A stretch of 32,854 nucleotides of DNA from Candidatus Gastranaerophilales bacterium (GTDB taxonomy: Bacteria > Cyanobacteriota > Vampirovibrionia > Gastranaerophilales > Gastranaerophilaceae): NCBI GenBank assembly GCA_944322665.1, contig CALUPM010000016.1:1-32854 (forward strand), written 5' to 3'. Under the pieces are notes generated by a model. That model was not told the origin of the DNA, searched no databases, and saw nothing but the letters and a program-made list of their open reading frames with translations. Each line of letters begins with the position of its first letter. Within the stretch, counting starts at the first letter, position 1. Below are positions 10,603 through 28,508 of this stretch, piece after piece. The translations under genes were made by a program, and so were the position numbers.

Positions 10603-10630
10603 TTTACTTATATTTTTTTTGTTGTATCAT
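10603..10630 (+). promoter_or_regulatory. Promoter of the arginine leader
   Basis: TTTACT (10603-10608), 16 nt, TATCAT (10625-10630), then 7 nt to the ATG of the leader peptide. Matches are 4/6 and 5/6 to consensus. It is divergent from the glycosyltransferase promoter. Confidence 0.5.
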
Positions 10631-10637
10631 ATAAACT

Positions 10638-10700
10638 ATGCAGAAATTAGTTCAACACCGACGCAGAAGATTTAATCAGGAGGTTTTGTTTAAAGACTGA
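10638..10700 (+). CDS. 20-residue arginine leader peptide
   Basis: A short ORF, MQKLVQH, then four consecutive arginines (codons CGA CGC AGA AGA, 10659-10670), then FNQEVLFKD and a TGA. It has no Shine-Dalgarno site but starts 7 nt after a -10 box, so it is probably leaderless. Its last codons (10681-10694) form one strand of an antiterminator that would be free if the ribosome stalls at the arginines and covered if it reaches the stop. The arrangement matches ribosome-mediated attenuators of amino acid operons. The protein itself need have no function. It lies upstream of the unknown gene at 10999. Confidence 0.7.
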   Translation: MQKLVQHRRRRFNQEVLFKD

Positions 10701-10770
10701 ACTTTCCGTTTCTTATGTGCGGATAAAAAGATTTAGACAGAACCTTAAAAACTTTGAGGTTCTGTTTTTT
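10681..10770 (+). promoter_or_regulatory. Attenuator: antiterminator/terminator switch (arginine)
   Basis: Terminator: CAGAACCT (10738-10745) pairs with AGGTTCTG (10757-10764) and is followed by six T. Antiterminator: AGGTTTTGTTTAAA (10681-10694) pairs with TTTAGACAGAACCT (10732-10745) over 14 contiguous pairs, two of them G-U. Both use 10738-10745, so only one can form. Stalling on the Arg codons should free the first strand and allow readthrough into 10852-12462. Confidence 0.7.
10738..10770 (+). terminator. Rho-independent terminator of the arginine attenuator
   Basis: An 8-bp perfect stem with an 11-nt loop and a T6 tail, located 37 nt after the leader peptide stop and before any long ORF, as expected for an attenuator. 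Confidence 0.75.
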
Positions 10771-10851
10771 GTAAAAAAAAGTTAAAAAATTTCAGAAAAT
10801 AAGCAATAAAAATTTTTACGGTACTTAAAATAAAAGTGTGAAAGGAAAGTT

Positions 10852-10938
10852 ATGATATTAAGACTTCGACGAAAATCTATCATAAAAAAAGCGAATGCCC
10901 CGCGCGTTAGACTGATGAACTTAATCTGGGGCTTGTGA
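10852..10938 (+). CDS. 28-residue basic mini-protein or second leader peptide
   Basis: An ORF of 28 codons starting MILRLRRKSIIKKANAPRV and ending NLIWGL, with a strong ribosome binding site AAAGGAAAG 4-5 nt before the ATG. It contains five arginines and three lysines. It lies between the arginine attenuator and the 487-aa gene, so it would be made only on readthrough. TCTATCA (10876-10882) pairs with TGATAGA (10936-10942) across the stop codon, and GCCCC (10897-10901) with GGGGC (10928-10932). It could be a second control layer or a real small protein. Confidence 0.5.
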   Translation: MILRLRRKSIIKKANAPRVRLMNLIWGL

Positions 10939-10949
10939 TAGACAACTGC

Positions 10950-10975
10950 GCAAAAACGTAACTAAAAGTTTTTGC
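10950..10975 (+). promoter_or_regulatory. Hairpin just upstream of the 487-aa gene
   Basis: GCAAAAAC (10950-10957) and GTTTTTGC (10968-10975) form a perfect 8-bp stem with a 10-nt loop, ending 8 nt before the ribosome binding site AAAAGGA (10984-10990). There is no T tail after the stem, so a role at the level of translation or RNA stability is more likely than termination. Confidence 0.45.
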
Positions 10976-10998
10976 CGTAATCGAAAAGGAAATTTTAC

Positions 10999-12462
10999 AT
11001 GATACCCGCAATTTCAGCAAGCAAAATATACTCAACACTCGGAAACGAAAATTCTTTAATACCCCTTGCGATAAAAGATATCGCAAACAGCACCGGATTA
11101 ACGGCAGCCTCCTACCTTGCAGGCGACGAGGCTGAAGGAAGAGACAGATTTATAGACGAATTCGGAACGCAGGCAATCTGGCTTTTCGGCATTCCGGTTT
11201 ACAAAAAACTCCTTGATTTAGGACTGTTTAAAACTCTGGGATTTGACCCGAAAGTCGATGTCAGAGTTCTAAAAAACCCAGATATTTTTGAAAAAGCAAA
11301 AGAATATGCCGCAAATGATAAAATTAAAGCATCTTTGGAAAAAATCGGCAAATCTCAGAAAAATATAAAAATCTTTAAAGGTCTGACATTCGGGAAATTT
11401 GTAGCCTCGACTTTCCTTACAATCGCTTCATACTACGGGCTTACGAAATTCAGACACAAGCACACTGAAGAACATATCAAAGAAGAATTCTTAAAAAAAC
11501 AGGCTGCACTTAAAACGACACCGCACAAAATTAAACCTGCCTTTGCCGCACCTTCGCTTCAAAAAGTACCGTCAGCCTTCGGCGGTGTCCACAACAGCAC
11601 AAAAACTGCTCAAAAACAGGATAAAAATCCGTCCTTCGGCGGCATTCAGGATTTTATGTTCAGCCCGACAAAAAACCTTATGATTGTCGACGGCTCAATC
11701 ACTGCAGAAAGAATTTTTGAATCAAGAAACCCGCAGGACACCATCGGATACATTGTAAAAGAAGGTAGTTTCTGGGCGTTTATGTATCTTCTCGGCGGCA
11801 GAATTCAGAAACACGTTGAAAACAGCACCGAAAAAAAACACAACATGAATATCAAGCTTGACGCAAGGGTTATAGAAAGCGAAGAACTTAAAAATGCGCT
11901 TAAAAACAAAGACCTTCCGACACTTCTTCAGACATTTTCAAACCTTAAAAAAGATGTCGATATTTACGACTTTATCTGCAACCCGAATAACAAAGATAAC
12001 ATTATAGTCAAAATGGCGAAGATGTCTGATATTATAAAAGTTACGCCGACACCTGCAAAAGACACTGACAGAACTTTTGCAAAACTCAAAAACACAATTC
12101 TCCAGCCCAAAGACCTCAACAATCCTATTGACACAAGAGCGTTCATAGATATTGATGCCGTAAAATCAATCAACGAAAACCTCGGAAAACTTTACGAACA
12201 GTTCAGCGCATACAAGGCAAACGCCGGTACAGGCAAGCAGGATGAAGAACTTTTAACCTTCTTTCTTAAAGACCTGAAAAAATACAAACGGATATCAATT
12301 CTCAAAAACATCGGAGCCTGCATAGGCGCACTCGGAATTGTATGTCCTGCGATTATGCTGGCTTTAAGGTTTATAAACAAAGACAACAGAAATTTTAAAG
12401 TTAAAGAAGACATAGAACAAAAGCTTGCGGCAGATATTCAGGCAGGGAAAATCAAAGTTTAA
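10999..12462 (+). CDS. Unknown membrane-associated protein, arginine-attenuated paralog
   Basis: 487 residues, AAAAGGA 8 nt before the ATG. Not recognised. It is a clear paralog of the protein at 25477-26844. Shared blocks in order: start with SALGN-like STLGNEN; RDRFIDEFGTQAIWLFGIP (paralog RERIIDEYLTSAVWLGGIP); GFDPKVDVRVLK; FGKFVASTFL; VDGSITAERI; NIKLDARVI; DTRAFIDIDAV; and a C-terminal hydrophobic helix near 440-465 (LKNIGACIGALGIVCPAIML). Two or three further hydrophobic stretches lie near 55-70 and 130-150. The middle is a charged linker with two FGG motifs (SAFGG, PSFGG). It is probably membrane-bound, with large cytoplasmic loops. Upstream is a complete arginine leader/attenuator, implying induction on shortage of charged arginine tRNA. 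Function unknown. Confidence 0.7.
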   Translation: MIPAISASKIYSTLGNENSLIPLAIKDIANSTGLTAASYLAGDEAEGRDRFIDEFGTQAIWLFGIPVYKKLLDLGLFKTLGFDPKVDVRVLKNPDIFEKAKEYAANDKIKASLEKIGKSQKNIKIFKGLTFGKFVASTFLTIASYYGLTKFRHKHTEEHIKEEFLKKQAALKTTPHKIKPAFAAPSLQKVPSAFGGVHNSTKTAQKQDKNPSFGGIQDFMFSPTKNLMIVDGSITAERIFESRNPQDTIGYIVKEGSFWAFMYLLGGRIQKHVENSTEKKHNMNIKLDARVIESEELKNALKNKDLPTLLQTFSNLKKDVDIYDFICNPNNKDNIIVKMAKMSDIIKVTPTPAKDTDRTFAKLKNTILQPKDLNNPIDTRAFIDIDAVKSINENLGKLYEQFSAYKANAGTGKQDEELLTFFLKDLKKYKRISILKNIGACIGALGIVCPAIMLALRFINKDNRNFKVKEDIEQKLAADIQAGKIKV

Positions 12463-25476: not shown

Positions 25477-26844
25477 CTAGTCAATAATTCCGGGTTCCAG
25501 TTTAGATCCGGTGTACCATTCTCTGAACACGTATTGAACTTTCGGCAGACAGTATGCAAGAAGAAAACTGCTTAAACCGACGTTTGTGAGGATATTCAGA
25601 GATTTTACAAACTTAGCTTTTTTAGCGAATTTCTGAACTGCATCTAATGTGGTTGCGCCTGCCGAAGTTCTTGCTTTAGAGGCAAATTCTTCAATTGATT
25701 TTTTGAAATTTGCAAGTTCTTTTATATCCACATAAGCCTTCGGGTCGCGAATTCCGTTCTTTTTAACTTTTGGATTTTCATAGAGAAGTTTTACTTTCTC
25801 AAATTTTGCAGCGTATTTTGTAAACAAAGAATCCGGATTTTCGTCAATAAATCTCAAAAGTTCTTTTCCATCGCAGGATTTTGGAAGTTCAAGAGTCCGG
25901 TCAGCGATCTGGTTTAAAAATTCTTTATCCTCAAGCATGAGAGGATCAAGTTTAACGTCTATATTAAGCGCTTTGTTGGCTGCCGAGTCGAGGATTTTTT
26001 CTATATATTTCGGCGCAACATAGTTCAAAAACATCATCCCGAGCATTTTAAAACCTAAGTCGACAGCTTCATTTTTTTTGCGGGAAGTAATAATACGCCC
26101 TGCAGCATAACCTCCGTCAATCGCTGCCATCTTCTGATAAGTTGTAAAATTAGCAACGGCTGAAGCCATATTGCCGCCAAACGTAACAGGAGAAGACTTT
26201 TTCAAAGACATTGAAGAAAACACATCTCTGTTTAAAGCGGTAAACGGAACTGCGTTTGAAGGGGTGGAGCCTGAAATCTGATTTTTCTCTGCGCGTTTTT
26301 TCTGAGCGGCTTTTGTTTTTGCGGTAAGTCCGAAAACCATCTTCGGAATTACAAATCCCATCAGCGCTACCGGAATCACAGTAGAAGCGGCAAATTTTGC
26401 AGACAGAAGCTTTTCGTACAAACCCTTGCTGCCCTTAACTTTTTTCAAATCTTCAATTGATTTTTCAATTTTACCGGCAAGTTCGCCTTTTATTTCGCCA
26501 TTTTTGAGTTTTTCCGAGAATGTTTTGACGTTATAATCCAGTCCCTGACAATCACTTTCTTTAAATAGCTTCAGATTGACATCCGGATTCAGCCCTTTCT
26601 TTTTAATCACAAATTTGTTGATTAAGCTTTCAACAAGCGGGATTCCGCCGAGCCACACAGCAGACGTCAAATATTCATCTATAATTCTTTCTCTTGTTGC
26701 AAGAAACGCAACGTTTTTGTCGTCTTTATTTTCCTGATAGGTGAGGTAAACTTTCGACGGAATTTCTACCCCGCAGTCACGGAGGATAAGAGGATAAACG
26801 CTGCTGGTATTTCCTATTGCCGATATTATATTTGTAAATGTCAT
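25477..26844 (-). CDS. Unknown membrane-associated protein, histidine-attenuated paralog
   Basis: 455 residues. Not recognised, but a divergent full-length paralog of the protein at 10999-12462: SAIGNTSS, RERIIDEYLTSAVWLGGIP, GLNPDVNLKLF, SAKFAASTVIPVALMGFVIP (helix, about 150-175), AIDGGYAAGRI, DVKLDPLMLEDKEFL, DPKAYVDIKEL, and a C-terminal hydrophobic helix SLNILTNVGLSSFLLAYCLP (about 415-435). The middle contains SPVTFGGNM, echoing FGG in the other copy. It should sit in the membrane with a large cytoplasmic portion. It is preceded by a histidine leader peptide and a terminator/antiterminator switch, hence probably induced when charged histidine tRNA is scarce. No biosynthetic motif is seen, and no histidine-synthesis gene is near. 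Confidence 0.7.
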   Translation of the reverse strand: MTFTNIISAIGNTSSVYPLILRDCGVEIPSKVYLTYQENKDDKNVAFLATRERIIDEYLTSAVWLGGIPLVESLINKFVIKKKGLNPDVNLKLFKESDCQGLDYNVKTFSEKLKNGEIKGELAGKIEKSIEDLKKVKGSKGLYEKLLSAKFAASTVIPVALMGFVIPKMVFGLTAKTKAAQKKRAEKNQISGSTPSNAVPFTALNRDVFSSMSLKKSSPVTFGGNMASAVANFTTYQKMAAIDGGYAAGRIITSRKKNEAVDLGFKMLGMMFLNYVAPKYIEKILDSAANKALNIDVKLDPLMLEDKEFLNQIADRTLELPKSCDGKELLRFIDENPDSLFTKYAAKFEKVKLLYENPKVKKNGIRDPKAYVDIKELANFKKSIEEFASKARTSAGATTLDAVQKFAKKAKFVKSLNILTNVGLSSFLLAYCLPKVQYVFREWYTGSKLEPGIID

Positions 26845-26894: not shown

Positions 26895-26937
26895 CAAAAA
26901 ATAACCTTTCACGCTTTTTATCCCGGGAAAGGCTATT
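26895..26937 (-). terminator. Attenuator terminator (histidine)
   Basis: RNA 5'-AATAGCCTTTC (26937-26927) pairs with GAAAGGTTATT (26910-26900) over 11 bp with one G-U; a 16-nt loop separates them and a T-run follows (26901-26896). It is 51 bp before the ATG of the 455-aa gene. Confidence 0.75.
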
Positions 26938-27003
26938 TCTTATTTAGAATTGAATTGATTTTAAAATTTAAAGCGCACCTATCAATTCACAGCCTTTCTC
27001 GGG
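26922..27003 (-). promoter_or_regulatory. Attenuator antiterminator (histidine)
   Basis: CCCGAGAAAGGCT (RNA, 27003-26991), inside the leader peptide ORF just after the His codons, pairs with AGCCTTTCCCGGG (26934-26922): 13 positions, one mismatch. A second paired block GAATTGAT / ATCAATTC (26981-26988 with 26952-26959) extends it. The 26927-26934 strand is shared with the terminator, so the structures exclude each other. Confidence 0.75.
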
Positions 27004-27047
27004 TTGCGATGATGGTGATGATGAAATTTTAAAATCATATTTTTCAT
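26982..27047 (-). CDS. 21-residue histidine leader peptide
   Basis: ORF with CGGAG 8 nt before the ATG. It starts MKNMILKF, has five consecutive histidines (CAT CAT CAC CAT CAT, 27009-27023), then RNPRKAVN and TGA. Compare the histidine-operon leader of enterobacteria, which has seven histidines. A ribosome stalled at the histidines leaves 27003-26991 free to form the antiterminator; one that reaches the stop covers it and the terminator forms. It has its own promoter, and the gene behind it is not a his gene. Confidence 0.75.
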   Translation of the reverse strand: MKNMILKFHHHHHRNPRKAVN

Positions 27048-27103: not shown

Positions 27104-27628
27104 TTATTTTCCGGCGATTTTGCTTTTTGCAGTGTAATACAAATCAATAACAGTATCGTCATCCATTTTTTGAACGGCTTTTACTACATCTTTTTCGTTA
27201 TTTTTTGTGTAAAGCAATGCGCGGACAATTACGTTATCCGCCATTGCGACAAGCCCTTTTCTTTTTTCTTCAATAACTTCTTTCAAGATTTTTTCTGCTT
27301 TTTCAATATCCTCAGGCTGAATTTTGAACCACGCTGAAAGAAGGTCGCCCTTTTTGGCCTGCGCAATCGGCTTTTCATAAGCTGTTGTAATTTCAGGATT
27401 TTTTAACATAAAAGTATCATAATCCCTGCCTGTTGCAAGATAAAGTTCTGAACTGTCAAGACCGGAAGCACTCAGTTTGTCAAACTGTTTTTCATAAGCC
27501 GGCATATGTTTTGTCAATTTCTGTCCGTACATCTCATCACAAATTTTCATTGCAACTTTGCCGTCAATCTTTATTCCGAAAGCCGGTTTATTCGTATTAT
27601 TGTTTGGAGTAAACGTACTTATTTGCAT
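27104..27628 (-). CDS. Small lineage-specific protein with N-terminal PxFG tag (copy 3)
   Basis: 174 residues, AAAGGA before the ATG. N-terminus MQISTFTPNNNTNKPAFGIKID carries a tag ending PAFG. The body is charged and helical (IEKAEKILKEVIEEKRKG), with LKNPEITTAYEKP near the middle. It lies in a three-gene tandem of related order: tag, short helical body, a NP-x-I motif, and a DIxxAE block (here EDIEKAEKIL). No signal peptide or membrane helix. Not a known family; probably a lineage-specific protein. It is the last of the three tandem genes, 21 bp after the middle one. Confidence 0.6.
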   Translation of the reverse strand: MQISTFTPNNNTNKPAFGIKIDGKVAMKICDEMYGQKLTKHMPAYEKQFDKLSASGLDSSELYLATGRDYDTFMLKNPEITTAYEKPIAQAKKGDLLSAWFKIQPEDIEKAEKILKEVIEEKRKGLVAMADNVIVRALLYTKNNEKDVVKAVQKMDDDTVIDLYYTAKSKIAGK

Positions 27629-27649
27629 TTTTATATCCTTTCTTTTTTG

Positions 27650-28120
27650 TTATTCAGCGCTTTTGAACAGTTTTAAAGTATCCGCATCAAAAACTCTGCC
27701 TTCTGTTTTGCTGCTTTTTATTATATTTTTTAATTGTTCCACATAAGGCAATCCTGCCTCTTTTGCTCCGCGTTTAACATTTCTGAAAAGTGCGTATTCT
27801 GCAAAATCAATGTCTTTTGATGTAAGATTAAAAATTTTATCCGCAAGTTTTGATTCCATATACTCCGGCTCGTCATTCGTTATTCGAACATTAGGACTGC
27901 CGAGAACTTCATTGCGCAGCCGCAGCATATACCGCAATTTTCCGTTAATTTTAGCATTATAAATTCCGACAACAGTATTTGAGTCACCCCATTTTGAAAA
28001 TTGTTTTATAAATTCATCATATCTCGGGTCTTTCTGCGCATAATAACGGAGTTTGCTGTCAAGTTTTGCCCGGAACACCGGAGGTTTTGAAGTATTAAAA
28101 TTTATTGAATTTACCTGCAT
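27650..28120 (-). CDS. Small lineage-specific protein with N-terminal tag (copy 2)
   Basis: 156 residues; AGGAG before the ATG. Starts MQVNSINFNTSKPPVFRAKLD, where the FG of the tag is FR. The body shows FSKWGDSNT (compare ENWGNKDT in the neighbour), LRNEVLG and SKDIDFAEYALF (compare EKDIRCGEKELLE and EDIEKAEKIL). These shared positions indicate divergent tandem duplication. It is 19 bp from copy 1 and 21 bp from copy 3, so the three form one operon. Function unknown. Confidence 0.6.
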   Translation of the reverse strand: MQVNSINFNTSKPPVFRAKLDSKLRYYAQKDPRYDEFIKQFSKWGDSNTVVGIYNAKINGKLRYMLRLRNEVLGSPNVRITNDEPEYMESKLADKIFNLTSKDIDFAEYALFRNVKRGAKEAGLPYVEQLKNIIKSSKTEGRVFDADTLKLFKSAE

Positions 28121-28139
28121 AAATTACTCCTGTTTGAAA

Positions 28140-28508
28140 TTAGTTGTCAAACATACAAATTGTTTCTAAAAGTTCTTTTTCTCCGCACCTAATATCTTTT
28201 TCTGACAGAGTACTTAAAGCGTCATAAGCATCCGTTCCCTGCGCTACTGTCAAAAATACTCTTTTAGAGATTTTTGGATTTCTCATAATTATATACTTTG
28301 AAGCATCCGCTACAGAATGCCCGAAATCCAGCAACGTATCTTTATTACCCCAGTTTTCAACTTTTGATATCAGATATTTAATCTCGCCGGCATTGCTTAT
28401 GCCTTTTTGCTGAGCTTCCTTTAAAAGTTGTTTTTGCAAACTTGCAGAAACTTTCACACCGAATGATGCTGAATTGTACCCTGTTGTATTAATCCGATTT
28501 ATACGCAT
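28140..28508 (-). CDS. Small lineage-specific protein with N-terminal SxFG tag (copy 1)
   Basis: 122 residues, first of the three-gene unit. Starts MRINRINTTGYNSASFGVKVS; the tag ends ASFG. Body: ENWGNKDTLLDFGHS, MRNPKISKRVFLT, then EKDIRCGEKELLE. AAGGA is 5 nt before the ATG, and a TATAAT -10 box (28521-28526, minus strand) lies a few bases further upstream. Soluble, no export signal. The alignment with copies 2 and 3 is by eye and weak but in the same order. Confidence 0.6.
   Translation of the reverse strand: MRINRINTTGYNSASFGVKVSASLQKQLLKEAQQKGISNAGEIKYLISKVENWGNKDTLLDFGHSVADASKYIIMRNPKISKRVFLTVAQGTDAYDALSTLSEKDIRCGEKELLETICMFDN

Follow-up and report, generated by a model that had tools for sequence, protein, structure and literature searches.

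We analyzed a 32,854-nucleotide (nt) stretch of DNA from Candidatus Gastranaerophilales bacterium (GenBank assembly GCA_944322665.1, contig CALUPM010000016.1, positions 1 to 32,854; hereafter the window), in which a gene for a 487-amino-acid (aa) protein follows two short open reading frames (ORFs), ORF1 and ORF2. The leader of this gene appears to be a ribosome-mediated attenuator that senses tRNA-Arg(ICG), with ORF2 as a second checkpoint and with a regulated protein that is starvation-proof; a 455-aa paralog in the window appears to be built alike for histidine. We put the probability of this reading as a whole at roughly 0.8.

A probable arginine-codon attenuator precedes the 487-aa gene

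The first leader peptide and its RNA structures comprise the following elements, all on the plus strand:
10603-10630: putative promoter of the leader, TTTACT (10603-10608), 16 nt, TATCAT (10625-10630); the ORF1 ATG lies 7 nt downstream
10638 (ATG) to 10700 (TGA): ORF1, predicted leader peptide MQKLVQHRRRRFNQEVLFKD, 20 aa, read on the sequence
10659-10664: ORF1 sensor codons CGA CGC, a conserved pair; the next two codons, AGA AGA, are not conserved
10681-10694: region 2, the 5' arm of the antiterminator, within the last codons of ORF1; pairs with 10732-10745
10732-10745: region 3, the 3' arm of the antiterminator; 10738-10745 doubles as the 5' arm of the terminator
10738-10770: intrinsic terminator, 10738-10745 paired with 10757-10764, then six T (10765-10770)

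A first-pass annotation had proposed arginine attenuation at this site. Every coordinate that it gave for ORF1 and its arginine run CGA CGC AGA AGA (10659-10670) agrees with the sequence, as do the 14-base-pair (bp) antiterminator helix, two pairs of which are G-U, and the 8-bp terminator with its T run. Since both helices use the segment 10738-10745, they are mutually exclusive, as the annotation had held. The antiterminator helix alone has an energy of -12.5 kcal/mol, or -21.5 kcal/mol with its loop folded, and the terminator hairpin, which extends past the 8-bp core, folds at -17.4 kcal/mol. The fold of 10638-10772 is better than that of all 200 of 200 dinucleotide shuffles (z -3.4). The terminator at 10738-10770 was not among the listed results of a simple terminator scan. 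Rfam models, T-box and other leaders and riboswitches included, gave no match to the window at gathering score and only chance-level leader matches at a permissive threshold. Because the -10 box ends so close to the ORF1 ATG, the transcript is probably leaderless, beginning at the ATG itself.

Relatives of the 487-aa protein were found in 42 of the 59 genomes searched, some of the matches being paralogs. Our ortholog set comprises 93 distinct loci of the 487-aa gene from Gastranaerophilales metagenome-assembled genomes, nearly all from gut or rumen. Under strict scoring, 71 of these loci have an ORF1 with an Arg-Arg pair, region 2 and a terminator. The pair is CGA-CGT in 38, CGA-CGC in 16, CGA-CGA in 16 and AGA-CGA in one. 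Thus, of the run of four arginine codons to which the annotation had drawn attention, the first two are conserved (CGA-CGN in 70 of 71) and the run as such is not. Judged by this conservation, the sensor consists of CGA-CGN, which tRNA-Arg(ICG) reads, rather than of arginine codons generally.

The placement of the pair also suits attenuation, as had been argued for this window: where the helix is strong, the first CGA and the start of region 2 are 18-31 nt apart (median 22), and region 2 mostly ends near the ORF1 stop codon. Pairing between region 2 and the terminator arm is specific to the locus, with a score of 19.9 within loci vs 16.8 (standard deviation, sd, 0.23) when loci are swapped (70 loci). 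Together with the strict count of ORF1, region 2 and terminator (71 of 88 loci), this is the outcome that the annotation had asked for as a check, a layout that persists while its flanking sequence changes. Orthologs from genus mates at 69-85% identity, and those from other families, are preceded by these parts in the same order, which is more than chance would give. Promoter geometry like that in the window precedes ORF1 in 39 of 70 loci, the commonest spacing from the -10 box to the ATG being 6 nt; a Shine-Dalgarno (SD)-like sequence precedes it in 25 of 70. The loci thus combine a leader ORF with consecutive control codons, an exclusive antiterminator and terminator, and fitting codon placement. 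These sequence features support the earlier reading of the leader and extend it; in kind, the element would be a ribosome-mediated (trp-type) attenuator.

ORF2, a probable second leader peptide, is conserved and has an RNA structure

The first-pass annotation had also noted a second, 28-aa ORF before the 487-aa gene. It is indeed present, and it now emerges as the better conserved of the two leader peptides, with an RNA structure of its own (all on the plus strand):
10852 (ATG) to 10938 (TGA): ORF2, leader peptide MILRLRRKSIIKKANAPRVRLMNLIWGL, 28 aa, with an SD-like AAAGGA just upstream
10867-10872: ORF2 sensor codons CGA CGA
10876-10883: 5' arm of helix P1, in the codons directly after the arginine pair
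10935-10942: 3' arm of P1, which in this genome overlaps the stop codon of ORF2
10897-10932: hairpin P2 within ORF2, GCCCC (10897-10901) paired with GGGGC (10928-10932), enclosed by P1
10950-10975: hairpin P3, GCAAAAAC/GTTTTTGC, without a T tail, between ORF2 and the gene

In 88 of the 93 loci, ORF2 lies 22 to 129 nt upstream of the gene and ends in N-L-x-W-G-L-stop. None of these 88 peptides deviates at the N, L, W, G or L residue, most of which the search pattern demanded. The codons for Leu, Gly and Asn in this ending vary and all three stop codons occur, which indicates that selection acts on the peptide. A DNA signature of ORF2 occurs a single time in each of 33 genomes among the 59 searched, with no match in reversed controls, and it stands directly upstream of the 487-aa gene in the loci read. 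The arginine pair is CGA-CGA in 77 of 88, even though CGA is a rare arginine codon, with a share of 0.4% in the genes downstream of ORF2 and of 3-6% in this genome (the background being drawn from flanking ORFs, tRNA-flank loci and the window). Searches of Pfam and NCBIfam with the leader peptides gave no match, and ORF2 falls outside DUF2618 (PF10940).

Across loci, the 3' arm of P1 lies at the stop codon or directly behind it. Helix P1 scores 17.6 when both arms come from one locus vs 12.6 (sd 0.3) when they come from different loci, and several of its pairs show covariation (C-G/T-A/A-T exchanges); P2 yields little covariation evidence because it is nearly invariant. In a fold model with a ribosome at the ORF2 arginine pair, the expected number of P1 pairs falls from about 8 to 0.1. 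Most of the 76 loci with room for it have a hairpin at the position of P3 (mean z -2.1), of unrelated sequence between loci. A role for P3 as a terminator was ruled out, as it has no T tail.

Two further observations concern the surroundings of ORF2. A conserved sequence, AAGCAATAAAAATTTTTACGGTACTTAAAA, lies at about 10798-10830, between the terminator and ORF2, and is kept in L024, a locus without ORF1; it is possibly a second promoter or another signal. Short ORFs before family members L093 and L096 (families f2/f3) end in ILNIF-stop and not in NLxWGL-stop.

The 487-aa gene avoids the sensed codons

The regulated gene and its ribosome-binding site are located as follows:
10984-10990, plus strand: SD sequence AAAAGGA of the 487-aa gene
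10999-12462, plus strand: regulated gene, a helical protein of 487 aa, nearly free of CGA/CGC/CGT

CGA, CGC and CGT together account for 12 of 1177 arginine codons (1.0%) in 487-aa genes vs 961 of 2837 (33.9%) in flanking ORFs (Fisher p 5e-149). CGG is less affected (2.5% vs 5.0%), and it has its own tRNA, CCG, among the tRNA-Arg genes found in this genome (ACG, CCG and CCT). AGA supplies 91.5% of arginine codons in 487-aa genes. Being nearly without the codons sensed in ORF1 and ORF2, the gene should yield its protein even when tRNA-Arg(ICG) is short. The histidine content of the protein is normal. Paralogs of a third type (L080, L087-L090 and L092), in which we saw no comparable leader, use CGN codons and histidine normally and serve as a within-family control.

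Sequence searches with the 487-aa protein against Pfam, NCBIfam and PDB sequences gave no match, known amino acid transporter families included. AlphaFold2 produced a confident, all-helical model (mean predicted local distance difference test 88, predicted template modelling score 0.82), and both the 487-aa and 455-aa paralogs have hydrophobic segments. Fold searches gave no convincing match: for a likeness to the transmembrane fold of ATP-binding cassette exporters, the best Foldseek E was 0.25, and the best VIA-align Z of 6.3 is within the range of unrelated helical bundles.

A tRNA-Arg(UCU) gene was not found among the tRNA matches of this draft genome, in spite of AGA being the main arginine codon; this probably reflects an assembly gap. 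The family also includes lineage-specific duplicates, L244/L245 in genome G080 and L246/L247 in G088, some of which keep the WGL ending without CGA-CGA, and one of which is without a leader. In the g44 copies inspected (L255-L257) the WGL ending is lost, and two of these three show relaxed avoidance of CGN.

A paralog with a histidine leader lacks histidine

The 455-aa paralog and its leader lie on the minus strand of the window:
26982-27047, minus strand: leader peptide with five consecutive histidines, MKNMILKFHHHHHRNPRKAVN, of the 455-aa paralog
26896-26937, minus strand: terminator of the histidine leader, AATAGCCTTTC...GAAAGGTTATT, then T, read by eye
25477-26844, minus strand: 455-aa paralog, with no histidine

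His-rich leaders precede most of the 455-aa orthologs inspected. No histidine occurs in 20 of 21 of these proteins, about six being expected at a background of 1.4%, and CGN codons are in use in the 455-aa gene at each of the 20 loci checked. Next to it, upstream of the histidine-leader gene on the minus strand (27104-28508), are three small adjacent proteins of 174, 156 and 122 aa whose N-terminal ends look similar; they had no confident match in Pfam.

Relation to histidine and arginine biosynthesis

HisG and full-length ArgG are missing in all 14 members of the genus examined; weak ArgG matches in the genus, in most cases over 60-70 positions, seem to be other PP-loop proteins. Among 117 genomes of the family, 2 of the 29 with HisG carry the 455-aa gene vs 73 of the 88 without HisG (Fisher p 1e-13, the genomes not being independent of one another). 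Two genera, g21 and g54, each hold both HisG states, with the expected swap in the 455-aa gene. The signature of ORF2 is rarer in genomes with ArgG (5 of 16) than in those without (107 of 137).

Proposed mechanism and alternative explanations

The conserved anatomy of these leaders suggests how they may work. With charged tRNA-Arg(ICG) low, a ribosome would wait at CGA-CGN, leaving region 2 free to pair with region 3 and thereby blocking the terminator; a ribosome reaching the ORF1 stop codon would cover region 2, so that the terminator would form and transcription would end. ORF2 would repeat the test at CGA-CGA, where a waiting ribosome would cover the 5' arm of P1. ORF2 is most likely a second checkpoint, acting on translation or RNA stability in the manner of orf34 at speF. 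In an organism without ArgG, a shortage of arginine is probably what triggers the signal most often. Leaders are known, in theory and experiment, to use a starvation-sensitive isoacceptor (PMC1183508); selective charging implies that a leader should use the codon of the tRNA emptied first and its target that of another isoacceptor. The 455-aa paralog would follow the same logic for histidine, combining the five-histidine leader, an attenuator, absence of the residue and occurrence mainly in genomes without HisG. In view of this regulation and, for the 455-aa paralog, its distribution, the two proteins most likely help the cell to obtain the missing amino acid, arginine and histidine, respectively.

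Several findings weigh against this picture. ORF1 is missing altogether in some loci. A few copies of ORF2 (L242, L245, L247 and L248) keep the WGL ending without CGA-CGA, which shows that its two modules are separable and that ORF2 cannot be solely an arginine-codon sensor. Masking the arginine codons of ORF2 shifted the modelled accessibility of the gene's SD sequence inconsistently (34 up, 31 down), so that the idea of ORF2 stalling exposing this SD was not supported. Sequence and fold searches with the 487-aa protein give no function. Finally, nearly all members of the family have the 487-aa gene, among them 6 of the 7 with ArgG, which makes its tie to arginine auxotrophy weak; we rejected the strong claim that it follows arginine auxotrophy in the way the 455-aa gene follows histidine auxotrophy.

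The near-universal presence of the 487-aa gene bears differently on another explanation, namely that the sensor responds to tRNA-Arg(ICG) itself being lost, for example through cleavage by an anticodon nuclease or absence of the inosine modification, and not the supply of arginine, with the paralog likewise watching tRNA-His. Confinement of both sensing and avoidance to ICG codons would fit such a device, as would the preference for AGA, a codon of another tRNA; its abundance also means that the protein does need arginine. Most defence genes are not so universal, however, selective charging theory has one isoacceptor emptying first under plain shortage (PMC1183508), and the way the 455-aa gene follows loss of histidine biosynthesis points to nutrition, so we regard tRNA loss as unlikely. 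A slightly better, though still small, chance attaches to ORF2 being a trans-acting small protein with a C-terminus conserved for that function, CGA-CGA merely lowering its own production under starvation. Conservation of NLxWGL at the amino acid level, even where CGA-CGA is lost, is what such a protein would show, but ORF2 is present in single copy per genome, directly upstream of the 487-aa gene wherever inspected, and a locus-specific P1 helix surrounds its stop codon.

That the identical hexamer occurs in both leaders might suggest that CGACG is an RNA- or DNA-binding motif and that decoding is not involved. We consider this very improbable: the scored leaders carry CGACG in frame, the pairs AGA-CGT, AAA-CGC, CGT-CGA and CGC-CGA of other loci keep a CGN codon while breaking the motif, and the downstream gene avoids CGC and CGT besides CGA. 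AT-rich hairpins and short ORFs are common enough to arise without function, and yet their conservation over many genera, the covariation, the codon statistics and the zero-histidine paralog leave chance with a negligible share. Returning to attenuation by tRNA-Arg(ICG), we offer one extension tentatively and with rather more doubt than belief: NLxWGL-stop may be the founding case of a class of peptides that arrest at the stop codon, forming a second gate with the folded ORF2 RNA, and the 487-aa and 455-aa proteins may form a new family for amino acid acquisition, each coupled to its own substrate's tRNA and made without the sensed codons or residue.

Significance and comparison with known systems

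A search of the open-licence literature turned up no account of leaders like these in Gastranaerophilales. The double leader, the NLxWGL peptide and the protein family appear to be undescribed, attenuation itself being known in kind (trp/his, orf34-speF). What appears to be new is the combination of a double leader, an isoacceptor-specific sensor, an NLxWGL-stop ending that does not vary and a target from which the sensed codons have been purged. The system provides a functional handle on an unannotated protein family of a largely uncultured gut order. Independent signs tie one paralog to histidine and the other to arginine: leader codons, avoidance of codons or residues and, for histidine, loss of HisG. 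With sensor and target under the same tRNA logic, selective charging and cognate-residue avoidance become testable in one short construct, and NLxWGL-stop is a candidate new arrest peptide.

Like the enteric trp, his and leu attenuators, the leader has a run of control codons in a leader ORF, an exclusive antiterminator and terminator, and codons of a starvation-sensitive isoacceptor. It differs in preceding a gene of an uncharacterised family rather than a biosynthetic operon, in having codons specific to one arginine isoacceptor and a second leader ORF, and in being probably leaderless in many species.

In Salmonella orf34-speF, stalling at two arginine codons and pausing at the stop codon choose between RNA structures (PMC6386406). 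ORF2 shares with orf34/SpeFL a short ORF with two consecutive arginine codons, a conserved peptide, events at the stop codon and a hairpin just past it, a likeness that supports a similar mode of action by analogy. By sequence ORF2 falls outside that family, matching none in Pfam. It also differs in having an intrinsic attenuator ahead of it and in ending in NLxWGL, and the gene downstream is unrelated to ornithine decarboxylase. As far as the ermB account in PMC8274638 goes, ermB is likewise preceded by two leader peptides, ermBL and ermBL2, but there stalling is drug-induced and amino acid sensor codons play no part.

Amino acid biosynthetic enzymes have a low cognate bias (PMC4209129), that is, proteins needed during starvation for an amino acid hold little of it. 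The same tendency is seen in the two paralogs described here, whereas their avoidance is nearly complete, operates at the codon level for arginine and is matched to the leader of each gene.
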